From positions 124,001-188,000 of the forward strand of contig NZ_PDNU01000010.1 in the NCBI RefSeq assembly GCF_002631185.1: a stretch of DNA of 64,000 nucleotides, read 5' to 3'. The notes under the pieces were generated by a model. That model searched no databases, was not told where the DNA came from, and worked only from the letters and a program-made list of their open reading frames with translations. The stretch is from Teichococcus rhizosphaerae (GTDB lineage: Bacteria; Pseudomonadota; Alphaproteobacteria; Acetobacterales; Acetobacteraceae). A program made the position numbers and the translations under genes. This document shows, one piece after another, positions 27,837-36,609 of this stretch. Numbering within the stretch: position 1 is the stretch's first letter; each line of letters opens with the position of its first letter.

Positions 27837-29669
27837 TCAGCGCAGGGGCAGCAGCAGGGGCACCAGCGCCACGCTCAGCGCCATGACCAGCACGGCGAAG
27901 GGCACGCCGACCCGCACGAAGTCGCCGAAGCGGTAGCGGCCCGGCCCCAGCACCAGCATGTTCACCGGCGAGGAGACCGGCGTCATGAAGGCGGCCGAGG
28001 CGGCGAGCGCCACGATCATGGCGAAGGGATAGGGCGAGAGGCCCATCTCCTCCGCGACGGCCAGGGCCACGGGCGCCATCAGCACGGCGGTCGCGGTGTT
28101 GGAGATGAACAGGCCGGTCACGGCGGTCGCGGCGAACAGGCTGGCCAGCAGGGCATGGGGCCCGGCCGCGCCCATCAACCCGACCAGCCCCTCCGCCGCC
28201 AGGGCGGTGCCGCCCGTCTTCTGCAGCGCCAGCGAGAAGGGCAGCATGCCGCCGATGAGGACGACCGTGGGCCAGTGGATGGCGCGGTAGGCGCCGTCCA
28301 GGTCGATGCAGCGGAAGCCCAGCATCATCAGCCCGCCGATCAGCGCCGCCTGGGCGTGCGGCACCACGCCGCTGACCATCAGCGCGACGACCACGCCGAG
28401 GCTGAGCAGGGCGTGCGGCGCCCGGTCGGCGGCGGGGGAAAGCTCCTCCAGGTCGTCCGGCTGGTTGAGCAGCAGGAAGGGCCGCTTGCCCCGCTGCGAG
28501 CGGCGCAGCTCCTTCCACGGGCCGGTGAGCAGCAGCGTGTCGCCCGGCTGCAGCTTCTCCTCCAGGAAGCCCTCCCCCCAGGCCGCCCGGCCGCGCCGCA
28601 GGCCGATCGCCGTGAGCCCGTAGGCGGAGCGGAACTCGGCCTCCAGCACCGACTTGCCGCAAAGGGAGGAATCGGGCGGGATCATCACCTCGGCCAGCCC
28701 CAGCGGGCGCGGCTCGCGGACGGGGTCGAAATCGTCGAAGGAGAGGGCGTGCAGGCCGAGCCGGCCGGACAGCGCGCGCAGCTCCTCCTCCGCGCCGGTG
28801 AAGTGGACGATCAGCACGTCGCCCACATGCGGCACCGCCTCGCCGGCGGCGTGCAGCACGCGGGTGGCGAAGCGCTGCGGCCGCTCGATGGCCATGACGT
28901 TCAGCCCGTGGCTGGCGCGCAGCCGCAGCGCCGCGAGGCTCCGCCCCGCGAGCGGCGAGGTCTGGCCGACGCGCAGGCGCCAGGAATTCTCCGCCAGGCC
29001 ATAGTCCCGGATGAGCTGCGCCAGGGTCAGCCCGCCGCCCCGCGCGGCCTCGGGCGGCGCCTCGTCGCTCAGCCAGCGATGCGCCACGGCCATGTAGGCG
29101 ATGGCCAGCAGCAGGACCGGCACGCCGAAGGGCGTGAAGCTGAAGAAGCCGAAGCCGGCATGGCCGTGCCGCAGCAGCTCGCTGTTCACCACCAGGTTGG
29201 GCGGCGTGCCCACCAGCGTCAACATGCCGCTGATGAGGGCGGCGAAGCCCAGCGGCATCATCAGCCGCCCCGGCGCGATCCGCAGCCGTGCCGCGATGCG
29301 CAGCACCACGGGAATGAAGATGGCGACGACCCCGGTGGAACTCATCATCGAGCCCAGCGCCGCCACGGCCAGCATCAGCATCGCCATCAGCCGGACGCCG
29401 CTGCCGCCGGTGCGCGCCGCCAGCCAGTCCCCCAGCCGCCCGGCGATGCCGGTGCGGACCAGCCCCTCGCCGATGACGAACAGGATGGCGACCAGCACCA
29501 CGCTGGAATCGCTGAAGCCCGACAGGGCCTCCTGCACCGTCAGCACCCCGGTCATGGGCAGGGCCGCGAGCATGATCAGCGCGACGGCGTCCGTGCGCGG
29601 CCAGCCCCGCGCGAACATCACGACCGCCACCCCCAGCAGAGCGAGCACGAGGGCCAGTTCAAGGGACAC
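27837..29669 (-). CDS. SLC13/DASS-family permease with TrkA-C domains
   Basis: A 610-residue transporter of the divalent anion/sodium symporter family. Membrane halves flank two central cytosolic RCK_C/TrkA-C-like domains (about residues 210-380). The hairpin motifs are SSTG...FIP in the first half with GTPPNLVVN, and SNTATAVLMAPVALAVAEEMG in the second. Such proteins move sulfate, dicarboxylates or related anions. The GTG start at 29669 has a weak GGCGGA site upstream. It is divergent from the flavoprotein/NuoF-like operon, so a dicarboxylate is an attractive but unproven substrate. Confidence 0.88.
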   Translation of the reverse strand: MSLELALVLALLGVAVVMFARGWPRTDAVALIMLAALPMTGVLTVQEALSGFSDSSVVLVAILFVIGEGLVRTGIAGRLGDWLAARTGGSGVRLMAMLMLAVAALGSMMSSTGVVAIFIPVVLRIAARLRIAPGRLMMPLGFAALISGMLTLVGTPPNLVVNSELLRHGHAGFGFFSFTPFGVPVLLLAIAYMAVAHRWLSDEAPPEAARGGGLTLAQLIRDYGLAENSWRLRVGQTSPLAGRSLAALRLRASHGLNVMAIERPQRFATRVLHAAGEAVPHVGDVLIVHFTGAEEELRALSGRLGLHALSFDDFDPVREPRPLGLAEVMIPPDSSLCGKSVLEAEFRSAYGLTAIGLRRGRAAWGEGFLEEKLQPGDTLLLTGPWKELRRSQRGKRPFLLLNQPDDLEELSPAADRAPHALLSLGVVVALMVSGVVPHAQAALIGGLMMLGFRCIDLDGAYRAIHWPTVVLIGGMLPFSLALQKTGGTALAAEGLVGLMGAAGPHALLASLFAATAVTGLFISNTATAVLMAPVALAVAEEMGLSPYPFAMIVALAASAAFMTPVSSPVNMLVLGPGRYRFGDFVRVGVPFAVLVMALSVALVPLLLPLR

Positions 29670-29848
29670 GATGCTTTTCCGCCCGCGCTGTTGCCCCGCC
29701 TAGTTTCCGCAGGGCGGCCGTTTCGTCCAGCCCAGGCCGGGAAAGGGCCCGCCCCTCCTTCCTCCACGGCCTTTGCCTTTGGCGCCCGGCTTGTTCAAAC
29801 TGCCGCCCGGATCACGCCGCCCCCGCGGGGGCGGGGCTTGGGCGGCCA

Positions 29849-29893
29849 GCAAGACGCGGGCCGGCAAGACACGGGCCGGCAAGACGCGGGCCG
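29849..29893. repeat. Tandem repeat (3 x 15 bp)
   Basis: Three head-to-tail copies of GCAAGACGCGGGCCG (the middle copy has one change) end at the ribosome-binding site GGAGGAGG of the iron-sulfur gene. The repeat is in the leader of the operon. Confidence 0.9.
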
Positions 29894-29905
29894 GAGGAGG
29901 CGCTT

Positions 29906-30580
29906 GTGCGGGAGGATGGGCTGGAGGGTGGCGCCGGCGTGCGCCTCATGTTCGACGGCCACGCGATCGAGGCGGAGGCGGGCGCGTCGCTGCTCCAGGC
30001 CTGGACCGCCGCCGGCCTGCCGCTGACCGAGAATGTGGGCTGCATGGGCCAGGGCGTCTGCGGCGCCTGCCGCGTGCTGGTGCGGCGCGAGGGCGAGCGC
30101 CTGGCCGACACCGCGCTGGCCTGCGAGACGCCGGCGGAGGAGGGGATGCAGGTCTCCTTCCTGGACCATTTCCCCGCCCGCCGCCCGCATGCCTACGACC
30201 TCCGCGCGCTGACCGACAGCTGGACGGCGCTGGACCAGATCGACGCCGTCTTTCCCGAGGCCAAGAACTGCCGCCATTGCAGCGGCTGCGACCGCGCCTG
30301 CCCCAAGGGCATCGAGGTGCAGCGCATGGTGAACCTCGCGGCCGGGGGCGAGGCCTTCGCCGCCGCCGCGCTGTTCGACCATTGCGTGATGTGCAACCTC
30401 TGCGTCGCCGCCTGCCCGGAGCATATCGACCCGGCCCATCTTGGCCAGTTCGTGCGCCGCATGAGCGCCGCGCTGACGCTGCGCCCCGGCGACTTGATCG
30501 CGCGGCTGCGCGAGATCGAGCGCGGCGGGCAGCCGATCGACCCCGAGGCGCCCGGCGCCAATCCCCCGCCCGGCCCATGA
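29906..30580 (+). CDS. Iron-sulfur subunit with [2Fe-2S] and two [4Fe-4S] clusters (SdhB/FrdB-like)
   Basis: A 224-residue soluble protein. The N-terminal ferredoxin domain (about 12-90) has Cys46, 52, 55 and 73; the first spacing is C-x5-C, not the plant-type C-x4-C. The C-terminal part has two complete 4Fe-4S motifs: Cys122/125/128/132 (CRHCSGCDRACP) and Cys160/163/166/170 (CVMCNLCVAACP). In SdhB/FrdB the clusters are 2Fe-2S, 4Fe-4S and 3Fe-4S, so the set here differs. GTG start after GGAGGAGG. The stop overlaps the flavoprotein ATG. Its likely role is to wire the flavoprotein to the NuoF-like subunit. Confidence 0.88.
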   Translation: MREDGLEGGAGVRLMFDGHAIEAEAGASLLQAWTAAGLPLTENVGCMGQGVCGACRVLVRREGERLADTALACETPAEEGMQVSFLDHFPARRPHAYDLRALTDSWTALDQIDAVFPEAKNCRHCSGCDRACPKGIEVQRMVNLAAGGEAFAAAALFDHCVMCNLCVAACPEHIDPAHLGQFVRRMSAALTLRPGDLIARLREIERGGQPIDPEAPGANPPPGP

Positions 30581-32211
30581 GCGCCCCCGCGGCGGCCCAC
30601 GGCATCCCCCACGCCGCGGCGCTGGCGGCCTGGCGCGGCCGGGCGCCCGCGCCGCCGCGCGCCCTGGCGCTCCCCGCGCCGGAGCTGCTGGAGCGCTTCC
30701 ACCCCGACCGGCGGCCCGGCGCCATGGTGCCGCTCCGCGTCGGCGCCAGCGCCGGCCTGCCCTGCCGGGCGGAGCTCGCCGCCCTGCTGCAATCCGACGC
30801 GCTAGTGGAGGACGAGGACATCGCCGGCGCGCCGCTGCTCGATGCGGACGTGCTGGTGATCGGCGGCGGCGGCGCGGGCTGCGTCGCGGCGCTGACGGCG
30901 GCGCGGGCGGGGGCGCGGGTGCTGCTCGCCACCAAGCTGCGCCTGGGCGACAGCAACACGGTGATGGCCGAGGGCGGCATCCAGGCCGCCATGGGGCCCG
31001 AGGACAGCCTGCAGCGGCACTTCGAGGACACGCTGCGCGCCGGCCACTTCGCCGCCGACAAGGCGCTGGTGGCGGCGCTGGTTTCCGACGGGCCGGGCGT
31101 GATCCGCTGGCTGATCCAGGAGGGCATGGGCTTCGACCTCGCCGAGGGCAGCGACCGCATGGGCGGCAACCTGCTGCGCAGGAAGCCCGGCGGCGCCACG
31201 GCGGCGCGGCTGCTCTCCTACCGCGACTTCACCGGGCTCGAGATGATGCGGGCGCTGCGCGAGGCGGTGCTGCTCGCCCCCGGCATCACCCTGCTGGAGC
31301 GCCACCCGGCGCTGGAGCTGCTGACCGACGACCGCGGCCGCTGCGCCGGCGCCGTGCTGCACGAGCTGGCGCGCGGCCGCCCCGTGCTGGCCCGCGCCGG
31401 GGCCACGGTGCTGGCCACGGGCGGGGCGGGGCGGCTGCACGTCGCGGGCTTTCCCACCTCCAACCACTACGGCGCCACGGCGGACGGGCTGGTGCTGGCC
31501 TACCGGCTCGGCGCCGCGCTGCGCGAGGTGGACAGCTTCCAGTACCACCCCACCGGCATCGCCTGGCCGCCGCGCATGGCGGGGCAGCTGGTGAGCGAGG
31601 CGGCCCGCGCCTCCGGCGCCGCCCTGGTCAACGGGCTGGGCGAGCGCTTCGTGGACGAGCTGGACACGCGCGACGTGGTCGCCGCCGCCATCCTGCGCGA
31701 GATCGCCGAGGGGCGCGGCGTGGCGCGGGACGGCCAGGCGGGGGTGTTCCTCGACACGCCGGGGCTGGAGCGGGCGAAGCCCGGCATCCTCGGCCGCAGC
31801 CTGGTCACCCTCACCCATCTCGCGCATCGCGCCGGCCTCGACGCGGCGGCCGAGCCCTTCCTGGTCCGCCCCACGCTGCACTACCAGAACGGCGGCATCG
31901 CCATCGGCCCCGACGGGTGGAGCGGCGTGCCCGGCCTGCTCTGCGCCGGCGAGGTGACGGGCGGGCTGCATGGCCGCAACCGCATGATGGGCAATGCCCT
32001 GCTGGAGCTGGTGGCGTTCGGCCGCCGCGCCGGGGCCGCCGCCGCCGCCGACGCCCGGGCCGAGCGGCCGCGCAACATCGGGCTGACGCACCTGGCCGAC
32101 TGGCGCCGCGCCCTGATCGCGCAAGGGCTGCCGCTCGCCCGCAAGGCGCCGCTGGTCTTTCCGCCCTACGGCAACTTCGACATGGCCAAGGACCGGGGGC
32201 GGGCGGCATGA
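30577..32211 (+). CDS. SdhA/FrdA/NadB-family flavoprotein
   Basis: A 544-residue FAD protein of the succinate dehydrogenase/fumarate reductase/L-aspartate oxidase family. About 85 residues without a known domain precede the FAD loop VLVIGGGGAGCVAAL. Substrate-site features are kept: HPTG, a Glu in SEAAR, TRDVVAAA (catalytic Arg), LHYQNGGI (His) and GRNRMMGNALLE (Arg). The His that binds FAD covalently in SdhA is replaced by Asn127 (SNTVMAEGG), so FAD is probably non-covalent as in NadB. ATGA overlaps with both neighbours indicate one complex. Fumarate, succinate, aspartate or a related acid are possible substrates; no membrane anchor gene is present. Confidence 0.88.
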   Translation: MSAPAAAHGIPHAAALAAWRGRAPAPPRALALPAPELLERFHPDRRPGAMVPLRVGASAGLPCRAELAALLQSDALVEDEDIAGAPLLDADVLVIGGGGAGCVAALTAARAGARVLLATKLRLGDSNTVMAEGGIQAAMGPEDSLQRHFEDTLRAGHFAADKALVAALVSDGPGVIRWLIQEGMGFDLAEGSDRMGGNLLRRKPGGATAARLLSYRDFTGLEMMRALREAVLLAPGITLLERHPALELLTDDRGRCAGAVLHELARGRPVLARAGATVLATGGAGRLHVAGFPTSNHYGATADGLVLAYRLGAALREVDSFQYHPTGIAWPPRMAGQLVSEAARASGAALVNGLGERFVDELDTRDVVAAAILREIAEGRGVARDGQAGVFLDTPGLERAKPGILGRSLVTLTHLAHRAGLDAAAEPFLVRPTLHYQNGGIAIGPDGWSGVPGLLCAGEVTGGLHGRNRMMGNALLELVAFGRRAGAAAAADARAERPRNIGLTHLADWRRALIAQGLPLARKAPLVFPPYGNFDMAKDRGRAA

Positions 32212-33527
32212 GGGTGCTCACCGATGAGCGCCGCTGCGTCGGCGCCGATCTCGGCGCCTGGATGGCGGCGGGCGGCGGCGCCGGGCTGGAACGCGCCCTG
32301 GCCGACCGCGGCGGCATCATCCCCGCCATCGAGGCCGCGGGCCTGCGCGGCCTGGGCGGCGCGGGCTTTGCCACCCACCGCAAATGGGCGGCCGTGGCGG
32401 CCCAGCCCGGCCCCGGCAAATGGGTGATCTGCAACGGCAACGAGGACGAGCCGGGCACCTTCAAGGACCGCTTCCTGCTGTCGCGCACGCCGCACCAGGT
32501 GATCGAGGGGGCGCTGGTCGCGGCCCTGGCGGTGGGGGCGGCCGACATCGTCCTCTACATCAACCCGCGCGAGGCGGCGGCCGTGGCCGTGGCGCGGGAG
32601 GCCGTGGCGCAATGGGAGGCGCACCCGCTTCTCGCCCGCCTCGCCGGGGCGCTGGGCGAGGCGCCGCGCCTGCGCGTGGTCACCGGCTCGGGCCTCTACA
32701 TCGGCGGGGAGGAGACGGCGGCGGTGGCCAGCGTCATGGGCGGCTTCCCCTTTCCCCGCCTGAAGCCCCCCTTTCCGGCGGAAAGCGGGGTGGGCGACGC
32801 GCCGACGCTGGTGAACAACGTGGAAACCCTGGCCCATGCCGGGCACATCCTGGCGCAGGGGCCGGAATGGTATCGCGGCCTCGGCCTCGGCGGCGCGCCG
32901 GGCACCAAGCTGTTCTCGCTCTCGGGCGACGTGCTGCGCCCCGGGCTGCACGAGCTGCCCATGGGCACCACGCTTCGCAGCCTGGTCTTCGGCCATGGCG
33001 GCGGCGTGCTGGCCGGCAGGGCCTTCAAGGCGGTGTTCACCGGCGGCCCCTCCAACACCCTGCTGACGGCCGCCGACCTCGACGTGCCGCTCGACTTCGA
33101 CAGCCTCCGCGCGCGCGGCTCGCGCCTCGGCACGGGGGCGATGATCGTGGTGGGGGAGGGCACCAGCATCCTGCGCAAGACGGCGGAATACGTCGCCTTC
33201 TTCGCGGCCAATTCCTGCGGCCAGTGCCCGCCCTGCAAGATCGGCACGCACCAGGTCTCGCGCATCCTGGAGCGGGTCGAGGCGGGGGCGGGCCGCCCCG
33301 GCGACCTGCGGGCGCTGGAGAACCTGGCCGGGCTGCTGCCCGGCAGCGGCCGCTGCGGGCTGGTGGACGGGGCGGCCACGGTGCTGGCCTCCTCGCTCCG
33401 CACCTTCAGGGGCGAGTATGAGCGGGCGCTCGGGCCCTCCGGCCAGGAGGACGGCCAGGAGGATGGCCAGGGTGACGGCCAGGGTGATCGCCTGCGGGGT
33501 GGCGGGTTGCGGGGCGGCGCGCCCTGA
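32208..33527 (+). CDS. NuoF-like NADH-binding FMN/4Fe-4S subunit
   Basis: A 439-residue protein of the complex I 51-kDa family. The FMN/NADH regions are seen as GLGGAGFATHRKW, CNGNEDEPGTFKDR and GSGLYIGGEETAAVASVMGG. The N3-type 4Fe-4S cluster ligands are Cys337, Cys340 and Cys343 (SCGQCPPC) and Cys383 (RCGLV). No other nuo genes are near, so this is not respiratory complex I; it probably supplies or accepts NAD(H) electrons for the linked flavoprotein. The ATG overlaps the flavoprotein stop. The last 30 residues are a low-complexity tail (GQEDGQEDGQGDGQGD) made by a 12-bp repeat. Confidence 0.88.
   Translation: MRVLTDERRCVGADLGAWMAAGGGAGLERALADRGGIIPAIEAAGLRGLGGAGFATHRKWAAVAAQPGPGKWVICNGNEDEPGTFKDRFLLSRTPHQVIEGALVAALAVGAADIVLYINPREAAAVAVAREAVAQWEAHPLLARLAGALGEAPRLRVVTGSGLYIGGEETAAVASVMGGFPFPRLKPPFPAESGVGDAPTLVNNVETLAHAGHILAQGPEWYRGLGLGGAPGTKLFSLSGDVLRPGLHELPMGTTLRSLVFGHGGGVLAGRAFKAVFTGGPSNTLLTAADLDVPLDFDSLRARGSRLGTGAMIVVGEGTSILRKTAEYVAFFAANSCGQCPPCKIGTHQVSRILERVEAGAGRPGDLRALENLAGLLPGSGRCGLVDGAATVLASSLRTFRGEYERALGPSGQEDGQEDGQGDGQGDRLRGGGLRGGAP
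33441..33488. repeat. In-frame 12-bp repeat (4 copies)
   Basis: Four copies of GGCCAGGAGGAC or its variant GGCCAGGGTGAY encode GQED/GQGD at the C-terminus of the NuoF-like protein. It lies after the last conserved residue, so it is probably a tolerated, slippage-prone tail. Confidence 0.85.
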
Positions 33528-33563
33528 GGCGGGCCGGGCGGCGCCGCCCGGCCGCGCCGCGCC

Positions 33564-34205
33564 TCAGTCCCAGCGCTGCCGGTAGGAGAACACCGGCAGC
33601 CGCCACGCCCCCCGGATGGCCAGCAGGCGCAGCGCCAGCCCGGCCGCGAAGCTGATCGCGGTGTTCAGGTTCGTGCCGAGGCCGAGATGGTGCAGGCCAA
33701 GGAAGAGGGCGCAGGTGGCGAGGGAGACGCTCGCATAGAGCTCGCGCCGGAACACCACCGGCACCTGGTTGCACAGCACGTCGCGCAGGATGCCGCCGCA
33801 GATGCCGGTGATCATGCCCGACATGATGACGACGACCGTGGGGTAGCCCATGCCGAGCGCCACGCCGCAGCCGATCAGCGAGAACGCCACCAGCCCCATC
33901 GCGTCGAGCAGCAGGAAAAGGCGCTTGAGGTTGTGCATCAGGAAGGCGATGGCCGTGGTCAGCAGCCCGGCGCCGATCACCAGGTAGACATATTCCGGGT
34001 GCTGGGTCCAGCCGATGGGGAAGCGCCCCAGCATGACGTCGCGGATGGTGCCGCCGCCCAGCGCCGTGACGAAGGCGATGACGGCGACGCCGAAGATGTC
34101 CATGTTGCGCCGCCCCGCCGCGAGGGCGCCGGACATGGCCTCGGCGGTGATGGCGACCAGGTAGATCCCGGTCATGACGGATTCGGGGTGAAGGAAGGCG
34201 TGCAC
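33564..34205 (-). CDS. TRIC-type cation channel family protein (YicG/UPF0126)
   Basis: About 213 residues with seven hydrophobic segments in two repeats of the UPF0126 domain. The sequence closely follows E. coli YicG (YLVAITAEAMSGALAAGRR; ALGGGTIRDVMLGRFPIGW; GGILRDVLCNQVPVVFR). Prokaryotic TRIC proteins are homotrimeric monovalent cation channels. Start: a GTG at 34205 has GGAG upstream; an ATG at 34175 would give a 203-residue protein closer to YicG in length. The gene is under a tandem glycine riboswitch, a recurrent link in proteobacteria, which suggests a role in glycine or osmotic balance, perhaps glycine efflux or charge compensation. Confidence 0.87.
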   Translation of the reverse strand: MHAFLHPESVMTGIYLVAITAEAMSGALAAGRRNMDIFGVAVIAFVTALGGGTIRDVMLGRFPIGWTQHPEYVYLVIGAGLLTTAIAFLMHNLKRLFLLLDAMGLVAFSLIGCGVALGMGYPTVVVIMSGMITGICGGILRDVLCNQVPVVFRRELYASVSLATCALFLGLHHLGLGTNLNTAISFAAGLALRLLAIRGAWRLPVFSYRQRWD

Positions 34206-34450: not shown

Positions 34451-34648
34451 ATTGGGACCGAGTATCGTTTGGCCCCCATCCTTCTGTCAACCGCTCCGCT
34501 CCGGCTGCGCGCGGCCCTGCCGCCCTGGCGCGCATCCTCGCGCGGCCAGGCGATTCCACCGGGGCGGGATCTGCCCTAGTCTCGGCCGCCCCGGCCCGCG
34601 CCGCGCGCGCACCGGGGAGAGGTGGATCGAGCGGCGGGAGCATGGGCC

Positions 34649-34978
34649 ATGGGTGACATGCCGGCGGGACCTCCAGCGCAACCGGCAACGGGCCCCGTGC
34701 CCCGGCTGGAGGCGGCCAGCCGGCCGCGCCTGGCGCGCGGGGCGCGGCTGCGGCAGGACACGGCGCGGGGCCGCTGGGTGATCCTGGCGCCCGAGCGCAT
34801 GTTCGTCCCCGACGCGACGGCGCTCGAGGTGCTGCGCCTGCTCGATGGCGAGCGCAGCGTGGCGCAGGTCGCGGAGGAGCTGGCCCGGCGCTACGCCGCG
34901 CCGCCCGGCGTGATCGAGGCCGACATCCTGCCGCTGCTGCAGGAGCTGGCCGACAAGGGTGTCGTCGCGCCGGGCTGA
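34649..34978 (+). CDS. pqqD: PQQ biosynthesis protein PqqD
   Basis: A 109-residue PqqD: RPRLARGARLRQDTARGRWVILAPERMFV, then TALEVLRLLDGERSVAQVAEELARRY and LLQELADKGVV are the normal family line-up. PqqD binds the PqqA precursor peptide and presents it to the radical SAM enzyme PqqE. GGGAG precedes the ATG; the first 25 residues are less conserved. It is convergent with pqqE and the two genes overlap by 88 bases at their 3' ends, an unusual arrangement because pqqD normally lies just before pqqE in the same direction. Confidence 0.92.
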   Translation: MGDMPAGPPAQPATGPVPRLEAASRPRLARGARLRQDTARGRWVILAPERMFVPDATALEVLRLLDGERSVAQVAEELARRYAAPPGVIEADILPLLQELADKGVVAPG

Positions 34979-36144
34979 CGGCGCATCTCGCGGTAGTGGA
35001 AGGCGCCGTCGCTCGCCGCCGCTTCCGCCAGCGCCGCCTCCAGCAGCCCGTGATGCGGGGACAGGGCGCAGGCCGGGTCGGTCGCCGCCGCGTCGCCGGT
35101 CAGGGCGAAGGCCTGGCAGCGGCAGCCGCCCCAGTCCCGCTCGCGCCTGTCGCAGCCCCGGCAGGGCTCCGGCATCCAGCCGGTGCCGCGGAAGCGGTTG
35201 AAGGCGTCGGAGCCTTCCCAGATGTCGCGCAGCGTGGCGTCGCGCACATTGGGGAAGGTGAAGCCGGGCAGCTCGGCGGCGGCGTGGCAGGGCAGCGCCG
35301 CGCCCGAGGGGCTGACCACCATGACGGCCCGTCCCCAGCCGCCCATGCAGGCCTTGGGGCGTCGCGCATGGTAGTCGGGCGCCACCTCGTCGATCGCCAG
35401 CCGGCCGCGCAGCGCCGCGCGGGCCGCCGCGATGGCGGCGTTGGCGGCCTCCAGCCGGCCGCGCTCCGGCAGCAGCGCCGCGCGGTTCCGGTAGGCCCAG
35501 CCATGGTACTGCACATGCGCCAGCTCCAGCCGCCCCGCGCCCAGTTCCAGGGCGAGTGCGATCATCTCCGGCACCGCGTCGAGGTTCTGCCGGTGCAGCA
35601 CGGCATTGACGGTGAGCGGCAGGCCCGCCTCGCGCACCATCCGGGCGAAGGCGAGCTTGCGCGCATGGCCGCCGGGCATGCCGCCGATGCGGTCGCTCGT
35701 GGCGGCGTCCGGCGCCTGGATGGAGAGCTGCACATGGTCGAGCCCGGCCGCCGCCAGGGCGGCCAGGCGGGCGGCGTCGATCGACACGCCGGCGGTGATC
35801 AGGTTGGTGTAGAGGCCGGCGCGGCTGGCATGGGCGACGATGGCCTCGAGGTCGCGCCGCGCCGCGGGCTCCCCGCCCGACAGGTGCAGCTGCAGCACGC
35901 CGAGCGCCGCGGCCTCCTCGAAGACCCGCCCCCATTCGGCGGCGGAAAGCTCCCGCGCGGCCTGCTCCAGCTCCAGCGGGTTGGAGCAATAGGGGCAGCG
36001 CAGCGGGCAGCGATGCGTCAGCTCCGCCAGCAGGCCCAGCGGTGGCTCAAGGGGCGGAAGTGCTGCGGGCGGGGGCTGGGCCAGGGGTTGGGCCAGGGGT
36101 TGGGCCAGGGGTTGGGCAGGGGGCGGATCGGCGGCCGGCATCAT
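34891..36144 (-). CDS. pqqE: PQQ biosynthesis radical SAM protein PqqE
   Basis: A 417-residue radical SAM/SPASM enzyme. The SAM cluster is CPLRCPYC, followed by LSGGEPAARRDLEAIV. Auxiliary cluster cysteines are in ACMGGWG, PCHAAAE and CRGCDRRERDWGGCRCQAFALTGD. PqqE forms the Glu-Tyr carbon bond in PqqA with help from PqqD. Two oddities are visible: an N-terminal tail with QPLAQPLAQPLAQP from a 12-bp repeat, and about 26 extra C-terminal residues encoded antisense to the end of pqqD. GGGGAGGGGGA precedes the start. It lies 49 bases after pqqA. No pqqB or pqqC is in the window. Confidence 0.93.
   Translation of the reverse strand: MMPAADPPPAQPLAQPLAQPLAQPPPAALPPLEPPLGLLAELTHRCPLRCPYCSNPLELEQAARELSAAEWGRVFEEAAALGVLQLHLSGGEPAARRDLEAIVAHASRAGLYTNLITAGVSIDAARLAALAAAGLDHVQLSIQAPDAATSDRIGGMPGGHARKLAFARMVREAGLPLTVNAVLHRQNLDAVPEMIALALELGAGRLELAHVQYHGWAYRNRAALLPERGRLEAANAAIAAARAALRGRLAIDEVAPDYHARRPKACMGGWGRAVMVVSPSGAALPCHAAAELPGFTFPNVRDATLRDIWEGSDAFNRFRGTGWMPEPCRGCDRRERDWGGCRCQAFALTGDAAATDPACALSPHHGLLEAALAEAAASDGAFHYREMRRQPGATTPLSASSCSSGRMSASITPGGAA
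36078..36113. repeat. In-frame 12-bp repeat in pqqE
   Basis: Three copies of GGGCCAGGGGTT (plus strand) encode a QPLA repeat in the N-terminal tail of PqqE, before the radical SAM domain. Confidence 0.85.
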
Positions 36145-36193
36145 TCCCCCTCCCCTTCGCGGCACCCCCGCGCGGCCCGCGCCGCGCGCGGCC

Positions 36194-36271
36194 TCAGAGC
36201 TCGGCGCCCTCGTAGCAGTTGATCTCCATCCCGAGGCAGACTTCGACGATCCGCGGCTTGGTCCAGGCCAT
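36194..36271 (-). CDS. pqqA: PQQ precursor peptide PqqA
   Basis: A 25-residue peptide, MAWTKPRIVEVCLGMEIN followed by CYEGAEL, too short for most gene finders. It has the conserved E-x3-Y pair (Glu16 and Tyr20) whose side chains become the PQQ skeleton, and the usual MxWxKP..E start. GGAGGG lies upstream of the ATG. The next gene on the strand is pqqE, with pqqB, C and D absent between, unlike the common pqqABCDE order. Confidence 0.95.
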   Translation of the reverse strand: MAWTKPRIVEVCLGMEINCYEGAEL

Positions 36272-36465
36272 TCTCGCACCCTCCATCATCGCCCGGCCCG
36301 ATCCTCCGACAGGACGGGTCCCGGCTTCCTGGAACTTGGTTCCGGCGGGGGGGATGTCAACGCGGCGGCCCGCGCGTTCCGGCCCGATCCCCGGGTCCGC
36401 GCCCGGAAGCGCCCCGCTCGCGCCGGCCCCGCCGCCCGCTTTCCCGGCCCCCGGCCACCCGTCCT
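36272..36465. other. Upstream region of pqqA
   Basis: This is the first part of a 389-base gap without a supported gene. It should hold the promoter of pqqA on the minus strand. I see no clear -35/-10 pair or operator in it. Confidence 0.3.
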
Positions 36466-36555
36466 GGCGCAGAACCCCTGGGCGCAGAACCCCTGGGCGC
36501 AGAACCCCTGGGCGCGGAACCCCTGGGCGCAGAACCCCTGGGCGCGGAACCGCTG
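36466..36555. repeat. Tandem repeat (6 x 15 bp)
   Basis: Six head-to-tail copies of GGCGCAGAACCCCTG with one or two changes in copies four and six. It lies in the gap between pqqA and the hybrid histidine kinase. It is the longest of several 12-19 bp repeats in the window and a good candidate for a length-variable locus. Confidence 0.95.
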
Positions 36556-36609
36556 GCCCGCGGGAAACCCTTTCCCCGCGAATCTGTTCTCAAATCGCAA
36601 TAGGTTGGC

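Follow-up and report, generated by a model that had tools for sequence, protein, structure and literature searches.

Soluble fumarate reductases that depend on NADH (reduced nicotinamide adenine dinucleotide) are already known, as are gene pairs termed 'TfrAB', but no earlier account of a probable three-gene form, found in the alphaproteobacterium Teichococcus rhizosphaerae, came to light in the literature searched. The three genes, termed here the trio, are at positions 29906–33527 of a 64,000-nucleotide stretch of DNA (the window; contig NZ_PDNU01000010.1, positions 124,001 to 188,000) and encode an iron-sulfur (Fe-S) protein, a flavoprotein and a NuoF-like protein. Miura and colleagues are said to have described, in 2008 (J Bacteriol 190:7170), a soluble fumarate reductase of Hydrogenobacter thermophilus that uses NADH and belongs to the reductive tricarboxylic acid (TCA) cycle. 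This enzyme, which we take to have five subunits encoded by scattered genes, would differ in that respect from the trio, whose three genes are in one operon. The FrdABCDE proteins of H. thermophilus are named an NADH-dependent fumarate reductase in the available part of a published account (PMC11508158), and the same reaction is proposed for the trio. The likeness is one of description.

Several other systems share parts of this architecture. The FMN_bind/ApbE type of enzyme is a cytoplasmic NADH:fumarate reductase, as in Klebsiella; no FMN_bind domain (FMN, flavin mononucleotide) is present among the Pfam matches listed for the three trio proteins. The TfrB protein carries a CCG thiol site. 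The Fe-S subunit of the trio (224 amino acids) differs here, as no CCG (HdrB-like) domain is found among the seven Pfam families listed for it. The methanogen TfrA model is the best NCBIfam match of the flavoprotein (among the best 25 of 51), with 314.4 bits, far under the cut-off of 718, and the methanogen TfrB model matches the Fe-S subunit with 27.3 bits, far under 385. Complex II (SdhABCD, FrdABCD) has a flavoprotein fold and catalytic residues in common with the trio flavoprotein. However, membrane anchors are not found beside the trio, the histidine that links flavin adenine dinucleotide (FAD) covalently is absent, the second [4Fe-4S]-type motif has four Cys residues, and the flavoprotein is outside the SdhA/FrdA branch and without the SdhA/FrdA C-terminal domain. 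It is also outside the branch of NadB, the L-aspartate oxidase, and scores 260.5 bits on the NCBIfam nadB model, under the cut-off of 452.75. NuoF of complex I and the HydB, HoxF and FdsB modules have the same NADH/FMN/[4Fe-4S] domain as the NuoF-like subunit; unlike NuoF of complex I, the trio gene is located outside a complex I operon, and a NuoE-like protein is absent from the trio. In gammaproteobacteria, a putative thiol:fumarate reductase, 'TfrAB', is encoded by a gene pair in reductive TCA clusters among flx-hdr genes (PMC6315080, PMC11636981). The available parts of these accounts mention no NuoF-like subunit, and the pair is described there as adjoining a four-subunit KorABCD.

The genome is 4.65 Mb in size, and the window, on the contig labelled C2, has a GC content of 0.69–0.77. 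The closest named relatives, as judged by the flavoprotein, are Pseudoroseomonas and Roseomonas. The trio is encoded on the + strand in the order Fe-S, flavoprotein, NuoF-like, with an ATGA overlap at both junctions:

29906..30580 (+): Fe-S subunit, 224 amino acids, with one [2Fe-2S] and two [4Fe-4S] sites (Pfam matches; 12 invariant Cys)
30577..32211 (+): flavoprotein, 544 amino acids, catalytic subunit, FAD predicted to be non-covalent (Pfam, tree, fold model)
32208..33527 (+): NuoF-like subunit, 439 amino acids, NADH/FMN domain and one [4Fe-4S] site (Pfam; invariant motifs)

An earlier reading made from the sequence alone (the sequence-only reading) had described three genes joined by ATGA overlaps, and both coordinates and overlaps proved exact. 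It had also assigned to them a 2Fe-2S plus 2x4Fe-4S protein, a flavoprotein of the SdhA/NadB type and a NuoF-like NADH/FMN/4Fe-4S protein; Pfam matches and cofactor motifs agree with this make-up. The Fe-S gene starts with GTG and has a further in-frame ATG at 29948. A scan of 29500–33750 for promoters and terminators gave none of either, and none of the listed NCBIfam matches of the three proteins (limited to the best 25 of 51 for the flavoprotein) reaches its curated cut-off.

The three genes are proposed to encode a soluble NADH:fumarate oxidoreductase that runs as an NADH-linked fumarate reductase, a reading to which we give a probability of roughly 0.78. We infer a complex in which FMN of the NuoF-like subunit would accept a hydride from NADH and release electrons one at a time to the [4Fe-4S] cluster of the same subunit. 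The Fe-S subunit, with its [2Fe-2S] and two [4Fe-4S] clusters, would carry them on to the non-covalent FAD of the flavoprotein, where fumarate would be reduced to succinate. The flavoprotein and the Fe-S protein may be viewed as a fumarate-reductase dyad, which elsewhere is encoded in reductive-TCA-type or fermentative clusters with other electron sources, and which in the trio would bring its own NADH module. The NADH potential is −320 mV. That of fumarate/succinate is given as +30 mV in the available parts of two accounts (PMC3578206, PMC5773532). At these potentials the NADH:fumarate reaction is steeply downhill and in effect runs one way. A description of a three-gene Fe-S/flavoprotein/NuoF fumarate reductase was not found in the literature, of which the search had partial coverage, with most subscription papers outside it. 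The statement of the sequence-only reading that no well described enzyme has this subunit set holds within that incomplete literature, but must be tempered by the existence of close relatives.

The trio is conserved far beyond chance. The flavoprotein is found in 21 of 299 genomes of the order, representing 6 of 65 genera, and a scan of GTDB contigs confirmed 436 relatives. Counts of trio loci rest on the best 80 of these and are biased to close relatives. The NuoF-like gene is on the same strand in all 80 loci (in locus L046 it is cut by the contig end; L and G numbers are our labels for loci and genomes), and the Fe-S gene is present in 77, the three without it (L033, L077 and L093) beginning less than 500 bases from a contig end. 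Neighboring genes were counted by direct tblastn. The conserved run, which was also obtained from neighborhood clustering filtered by GC3 (GC content at third codon positions) as GC-rich genomes yield spurious open reading frames, consists of the three genes. Carriers among the 80 are Roseomonas and allies, Cupriavidus, Paraburkholderia, Caballeronia, Variovorax, Comamonas, Pseudomonas, Halotalea, Neisseria, Alysiella, Azorhizobium, Xanthobacter, metagenome-assembled genomes labeled Myxococcales, Propionibacterium and others. The sequence-only reading had depended on conservation beyond close relatives, and the trio is indeed spread across classes. Among 398 genomes of the phylum, the trio was not seen beyond the T. 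rhizosphaerae genome. The trio is also found on a 194.6-kb plasmid of Pseudoroseomonas cervicalis, pL11-C (L113), which is predicted to be non-mobilizable; here it is beside phosphotransferase system (PTS) and 2-oxoacid dehydrogenase genes.

The sisters of the trio flavoprotein are encoded in Fe-S/flavoprotein pairs, or dyads. A tree was made of 77 rows: 37 trio rows (a selection that includes loci from the genome search and one plasmid locus, with two rows identical), 29 dyad rows (all loci L127–L155) and 11 others. Trio, dyads and a dyad of Ilyobacter form one branch with support of 100/100, and the SdhA/FrdA and NadB branches (100/99 each) are apart from it. The dyads form one side of the branch (100/99), and the trio as one clade has support of only 84/98. 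The tree carries a long-branch warning for Ilyobacter (L114) and FrdA. The flavoprotein was thus found to group with neither the quinone-linked nor the oxygen-linked enzymes, as the sequence-only reading required.

The flavoprotein has a Pfam FAD_binding_2 match of 224.5 bits. Its conserved features are as follows:

30577..30846 (+): N-terminal extension of ∼90 amino acids before the FAD-binding core (alignment)
30955..30957 (+): Asn127, at the column of the FAD-linking His44 of E. coli FrdA (Asn in 37/37 trio and 29/29 dyad rows)
30970..30972 (+): Glu132, at FrdA Glu49 (Glu in 37/37 trio and 29/29 dyad rows)
31546..31548 (+): His324, equivalent to FrdA His232, substrate (invariant)
31597..31599 (+): Glu341, equivalent to FrdA Glu245 (invariant)
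31669..31671 (+): Arg365, equivalent to FrdA Arg287, proton donor (invariant)
31879..31881 (+): His435, equivalent to FrdA His355, substrate (invariant)
31981..31983 (+): Arg469, equivalent to FrdA Arg390, substrate (invariant)

Both parts of the claim that the flavoprotein keeps its substrate residues but lacks the covalent-FAD histidine are borne out: the five substrate-site residues and Asn127 are present in every trio and dyad row. Asn127 is not diagnostic by itself, since two (L161 and L163) of the five NadB rows taken from other genomes also have Asn at this column. At the Glu132 column, all nine SdhA/NadB-type rows have Gln (the SdhA of T. rhizosphaerae, E. coli SdhA, E. coli NadB, and rows L161–L166, of which L162 is SdhA/FrdA-type and the rest NadB by NCBIfam). 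Glu or Gln at the FrdA Glu49 position reportedly biases the direction of the reaction, a finding said to be that of Maklashina and colleagues in 2006. FrdA Arg287 is the proton donor according to the available text of PMC5773532. The same text and that of PMC10238741, also available in part, state that covalent FAD in complex II raises the flavin potential and is required for succinate oxidation; variants without covalent FAD are described as retaining fumarate reduction and losing succinate oxidation (PMC5773532).

The N-terminal extension is found also in the Ilyobacter and dyad flavoproteins (at least 67–68 residues before the core in the two dyad rows measured, the ends of which are trimmed), and is absent from E. 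coli FrdA, SdhA and NadB in the alignment. The C-terminal part is short, with 60 residues after A485 where E. coli FrdA has 196 and NadB 139, and an SdhA/FrdA C-terminal domain is not among the six Pfam families listed for the flavoprotein. The fold model (predicted local distance difference test score, pLDDT, 84.1; predicted template modeling score, pTM, 0.87) is nearest to flavocytochrome c3 and FrdA. These are about equal by VIA-align, with Z 35.7, root-mean-square deviation (rmsd) 3.0 and 391 aligned residues for flavocytochrome c3 (1d4c_C), and Z 34.4, rmsd 3.0 and 419 aligned for FrdA (1kf6_A).

In the Fe-S subunit, 12 Cys residues are invariant in 24 aligned members (46, 52, 55, 73; 122, 125, 128, 132; 160, 163, 166, 170), and these make up three motifs:

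30041..30124 (+): [2Fe-2S] motif, C46-x5-C52-x2-C55-x17-C73 (invariant in 24 rows)
30269..30301 (+): first [4Fe-4S] motif, C122-C125-C128-C132-P (invariant in 24 rows)
30383..30415 (+): second [4Fe-4S] motif, C160-C163-C166-C170-P (invariant in 24 rows)

The site at a comparable place in SdhB and FrdB is a [3Fe-4S] site, instead of which the second motif of the trio has four Cys residues. Pfam matches over cut-off are Fer2_4, Fer2, Fer4_17, Fer4_9 and Fer4_8, the last two by less than 1 bit each. The NuoF-like subunit matches Complex1_51K (131.5 bits) and NADH_4Fe-4S (82.3 bits), and reaches 360 bits on the NuoF equivalog TIGR01959, under its cut-off of 558.65. The [4Fe-4S] residues C337, C340, C343 and C383, together with the Gly-rich/Glu motifs for NADH and FMN, are invariant in 80 rows, the window included. 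Identity is 39% to E. coli NuoF and 38% to the single other NuoF-type match in the T. rhizosphaerae genome.

Neighborhoods of the dyads indicate the pathway in which the flavoprotein/Fe-S pair may function. A dyad-type flavoprotein is present in 30 of the 398 genomes of the phylum; the 34 matching genomes consist of T. rhizosphaerae itself, these 30, and three that match at ∼1e-81 through NadB only. Neighborhood counts cover 29 loci, one genome (G382) carrying the dyad type having given no locus. The Fe-S gene is found in 27 of the 29, the two without it (L133 and L153) both being on shorter stretches, and succinyl-CoA synthetase beta is likewise in 27. A search for NuoF that was confined to these 29 stretches and to five extended dyad loci (L156–L160) found none. 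All five extended loci have succinyl-CoA synthetase genes followed by those of a KorAB-type 2-oxoacid:ferredoxin oxidoreductase. At L158 the order is malate dehydrogenase, fumarase alpha, fumarase beta, Fe-S, flavoprotein, SucC, SucD, KorA, KorB. The Kor-type enzyme there presumably acts on 2-oxoglutarate. This order is that of the reactions of the reductive TCA cycle, with the dyad exactly at the step from fumarate to succinate. Fumarase and malate dehydrogenase genes were not found in the stretches of the other four extended loci. These dyads can be likened to the published tfrAB pairs by description, at a level short of established identity.

The dyad of Ilyobacter polytropus (L114) is on plasmid pILYOP01. 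It follows HdrB-, HdrC- and HdrA-type genes and a hydrogenase iron-sulfur subunit gene, and is also preceded by sulfhydrogenase/sulfite reductase-like electron-transfer genes, with aspartase upstream; the Hdr and sulfhydrogenase matches are under equivalog cut-offs. Its position beside Hdr-type genes resembles that of tfrAB in the published clusters with flxABCD-hdrABC. The plasmid array is, by its gene content, a candidate bifurcating aspartate/fumarate fermentation module. An additional gene is found upstream of the dyad at L156 (5384–6178, + strand). It encodes a protein of 264 amino acids that matches nothing in Pfam, nor in NCBIfam at E 1e-40, and has relatives in 10 of the 29 dyad loci and three of the five extended ones. 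A part in electron input to the dyad there, or in its assembly, is conceivable.

The trio itself has a divergent transporter gene on one side and, on the other, a convergent gene for a Gly_transporter-family protein. The transporter is:

27837..29669 (−): CitMHS-type anion transporter with TrkA_C domains, divergent from the trio (PF03600, 340.1 bits; TrkA_C, 64 bits)

Transporters of the DASS/CitMHS type (related to the DASS protein of L065, to TtdT, to CitT or to the window's own) are encoded in 45 of the 80 trio loci; among the 63 loci longer than 13 kb the number is 40. Identity to E. coli TtdT or CitT reaches 54% in the closest. The proteins of L065 and L039 score over the DASS cut-off, and that of the window falls short of it (137.2 of 198.6 bits). 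Of the 80 loci, L047 alone encodes a close relative of the window's transporter (71%); L061 and L067 have weaker matches. Twelve genomes of the genus, T. rhizosphaerae included, have one to seven PF00939 matches each, and a PF00939 transporter is within 10 kb of the trio in four (G000, G266, G012 and G259) of the eight that are known to carry it, these eight being trio carriers among 20 relatives. The CitMHS-type protein of the window is a possible dicarboxylate partner of the trio. Fumarase-family genes are present in four of the 80 loci, these being all four loci of the Neisseriaceae (L101, L108–L110). Other neighbors related to C4 metabolism are scarce: DctA in four loci, malate-dehydrogenase-like proteins in two and an AspA/FumC-type protein in one.

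A number of these observations weigh against a fumarate reductase, and some would fit a related enzyme of the same architecture in which NADH drives reduction of another unsaturated acid, such as mesaconate, maleate, aconitate or another enoate. We regard such an enzyme as unlikely. The pocket is not identical to that of FrdA: at the column of FrdA Thr244, Ser is found in 36 of 37 trio rows (Ser340 here), and at that of FrdA Ser395 all 37 trio and all 29 dyad rows have Ala (Ala474 here). Only the four Neisseriaceae trios have a fumarase-family gene nearby, and succinyl-CoA synthetase and Kor genes are near none of the 80. With fumarase and AspA genes so few and succinyl-CoA synthetase absent, the substrate of most trios is assigned from residues, relatives and transporters. 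The transporter family carries tartrate and citrate as well (E. coli TtdT and CitT), the transporter encoded beside the trio in the window differs in type from the DASS proteins that are common elsewhere, and the chance expectation that a PF00939 gene occurs in ∼1% of 13.6-kb stretches is a rough estimate rather than a matched control. The Neisseria fumarase-family protein of L108 passes only the broad fumarase/tartrate-dehydratase domain models, and narrowly misses the cut-offs of the fumarate hydratase equivalogs (264.8 of 276 and 194.4 of 238 bits). On the other hand, fumarase models give this hydro-lyase a much higher score than do those of tartrate dehydratase, whose equivalog cut-offs it misses by far. 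The main dicarboxylate residues of FrdA are invariant, the sister dyads are in reductive-TCA-type clusters and the Ilyobacter dyad adjoins aspartase, all of which favor fumarate. Two further points against the fumarate reductase concern the Fe-S subunit and the hosts. The fold model of the Fe-S subunit is modest (pTM 0.54), and with this low-confidence model Foldseek gave partial matches only (template modeling score by query 0.23–0.29), most of them chains of complex I (75-kDa/NuoG type), of hydrogenases and of formate dehydrogenases. Many trio carriers are aerobes, in which an always-on NADH:fumarate reductase would waste NADH.

Other electron paths and directions have been considered. The best match of the NuoF-like subunit among solved chains is HydB of an electron-bifurcating hydrogenase (E 2.1e-90). 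This raises the question of whether NADH oxidation is coupled to both fumarate and ferredoxin or another low-potential carrier, as might also be suggested by the Hdr-type genes beside the Ilyobacter dyad and by the joining of tfrAB with flxABCD-hdrABC in reductive TCA clusters (PMC6315080, available part). However, the trio has no HydC/NuoE-like [2Fe-2S] subunit, and the NuoF-like protein aligns to the HydB core only (residues 167–558 of 630), without the extra stretches of HydB; bifurcation by the trio is thus judged decidedly improbable. The membrane-free, NAD(H)-linked enzyme of the sequence-only reading was to be a fumarate reductase, a succinate dehydrogenase or an aspartate dehydrogenase. 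The fumarate reductase, with its NADH-FMN-FeS-FAD-fumarate chain, is the best-supported of these, and the other two are disfavored. Substitution for L-aspartate oxidase in NAD synthesis, with conversion of aspartate to iminoaspartate and NAD+ as acceptor, would be in line with NadB being a near family of the flavoprotein and with the fact that, the trio aside, SdhA alone matches the NadB model in the genome. But NadA (PF02445) has no match in this genome, which is scored 100% complete, whereas the model gave a match in 12 of 14 control genomes; this leaves no quinolinate route by NadA. A NadB outside the trio was likewise not found in the genome, and the two absences together make NAD synthesis an unlikely role for the trio. 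The genome also encodes a NadX-type Asp_DH_C domain, the tree places the trio outside NadB, and Glu132 stands where all NadB rows have Gln. The substitution is very improbable, and was rejected on the absence of NadA and on the tree. Reversal of the proposed reaction, as an NAD+-reducing succinate dehydrogenase, has in its favor the same substrate residues as in SdhA. It would be uphill by ∼350 mV, the FAD-linking His is absent, Glu132 is present, and a normal SdhA already exists in the genome, so that this direction has hardly any likelihood. A complex II that has lost its anchors was rejected on the tree, the Fe-S motif and the missing C-terminal domain. NuoF2 and the succinate:quinone reductases of Nitrospina, also compared, are described as other types in the available part of PMC3578206. 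Apart from the question of the trio, the lack of NadA and of a separate NadB implies that NAD in T. rhizosphaerae must come by salvage or another route.

As for the role of an NADH-linked fumarate reductase, it would likely be NADH disposal or succinate formation when oxygen is short, and succinate and other dicarboxylates may be exchanged by the transporters often encoded nearby. As the genome has a normal SdhA, succinate would be either exported in exchange for dicarboxylates or re-oxidized by succinate dehydrogenase (SDH), with electrons shuttled from NADH to quinone. Perhaps the trio is an NADH valve in otherwise aerobic bacteria, which arose by operon-level joining of a NuoF-type module to a reductive-TCA-type dyad; this broader proposal is tentative, and we hold it to be somewhat doubtful. 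If it is true and succinate is re-oxidized, the soluble enzyme and SDH would together form a shuttle from NADH to quinone that avoids complex I and does not pump. A compact, anchor-free NADH:fumarate reductase would also help to explain succinate formation, and to engineer it. The same pair, found with a NuoF module here, with Hdr-type genes in Ilyobacter and with succinyl-CoA synthetase in reductive-TCA-type clusters, would represent a clear case of modular evolution. Roseomonas, Cupriavidus, Paraburkholderia, Pseudomonas and Neisseria species are mostly regarded as aerobes, which raises the question of why they keep such an enzyme.

Further along the window, the PqqD gene (34622–34978, + strand) and the PqqE gene (34891–36279, − strand) are arranged tail to tail with an antisense overlap of 88 bases, both proteins being above NCBIfam cut-offs. 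This arrangement differs from that of the usual pqq operon, which is co-directional. Short tandem repeats with units of 12 or 15 bases lie at the ends of genes: immediately before the trio (29844–29894), in the C-terminal tail of the NuoF-like protein (33440–33483), near the N-terminus of PqqE (36072–36122), and between PqqE and the next gene (36466–36556).

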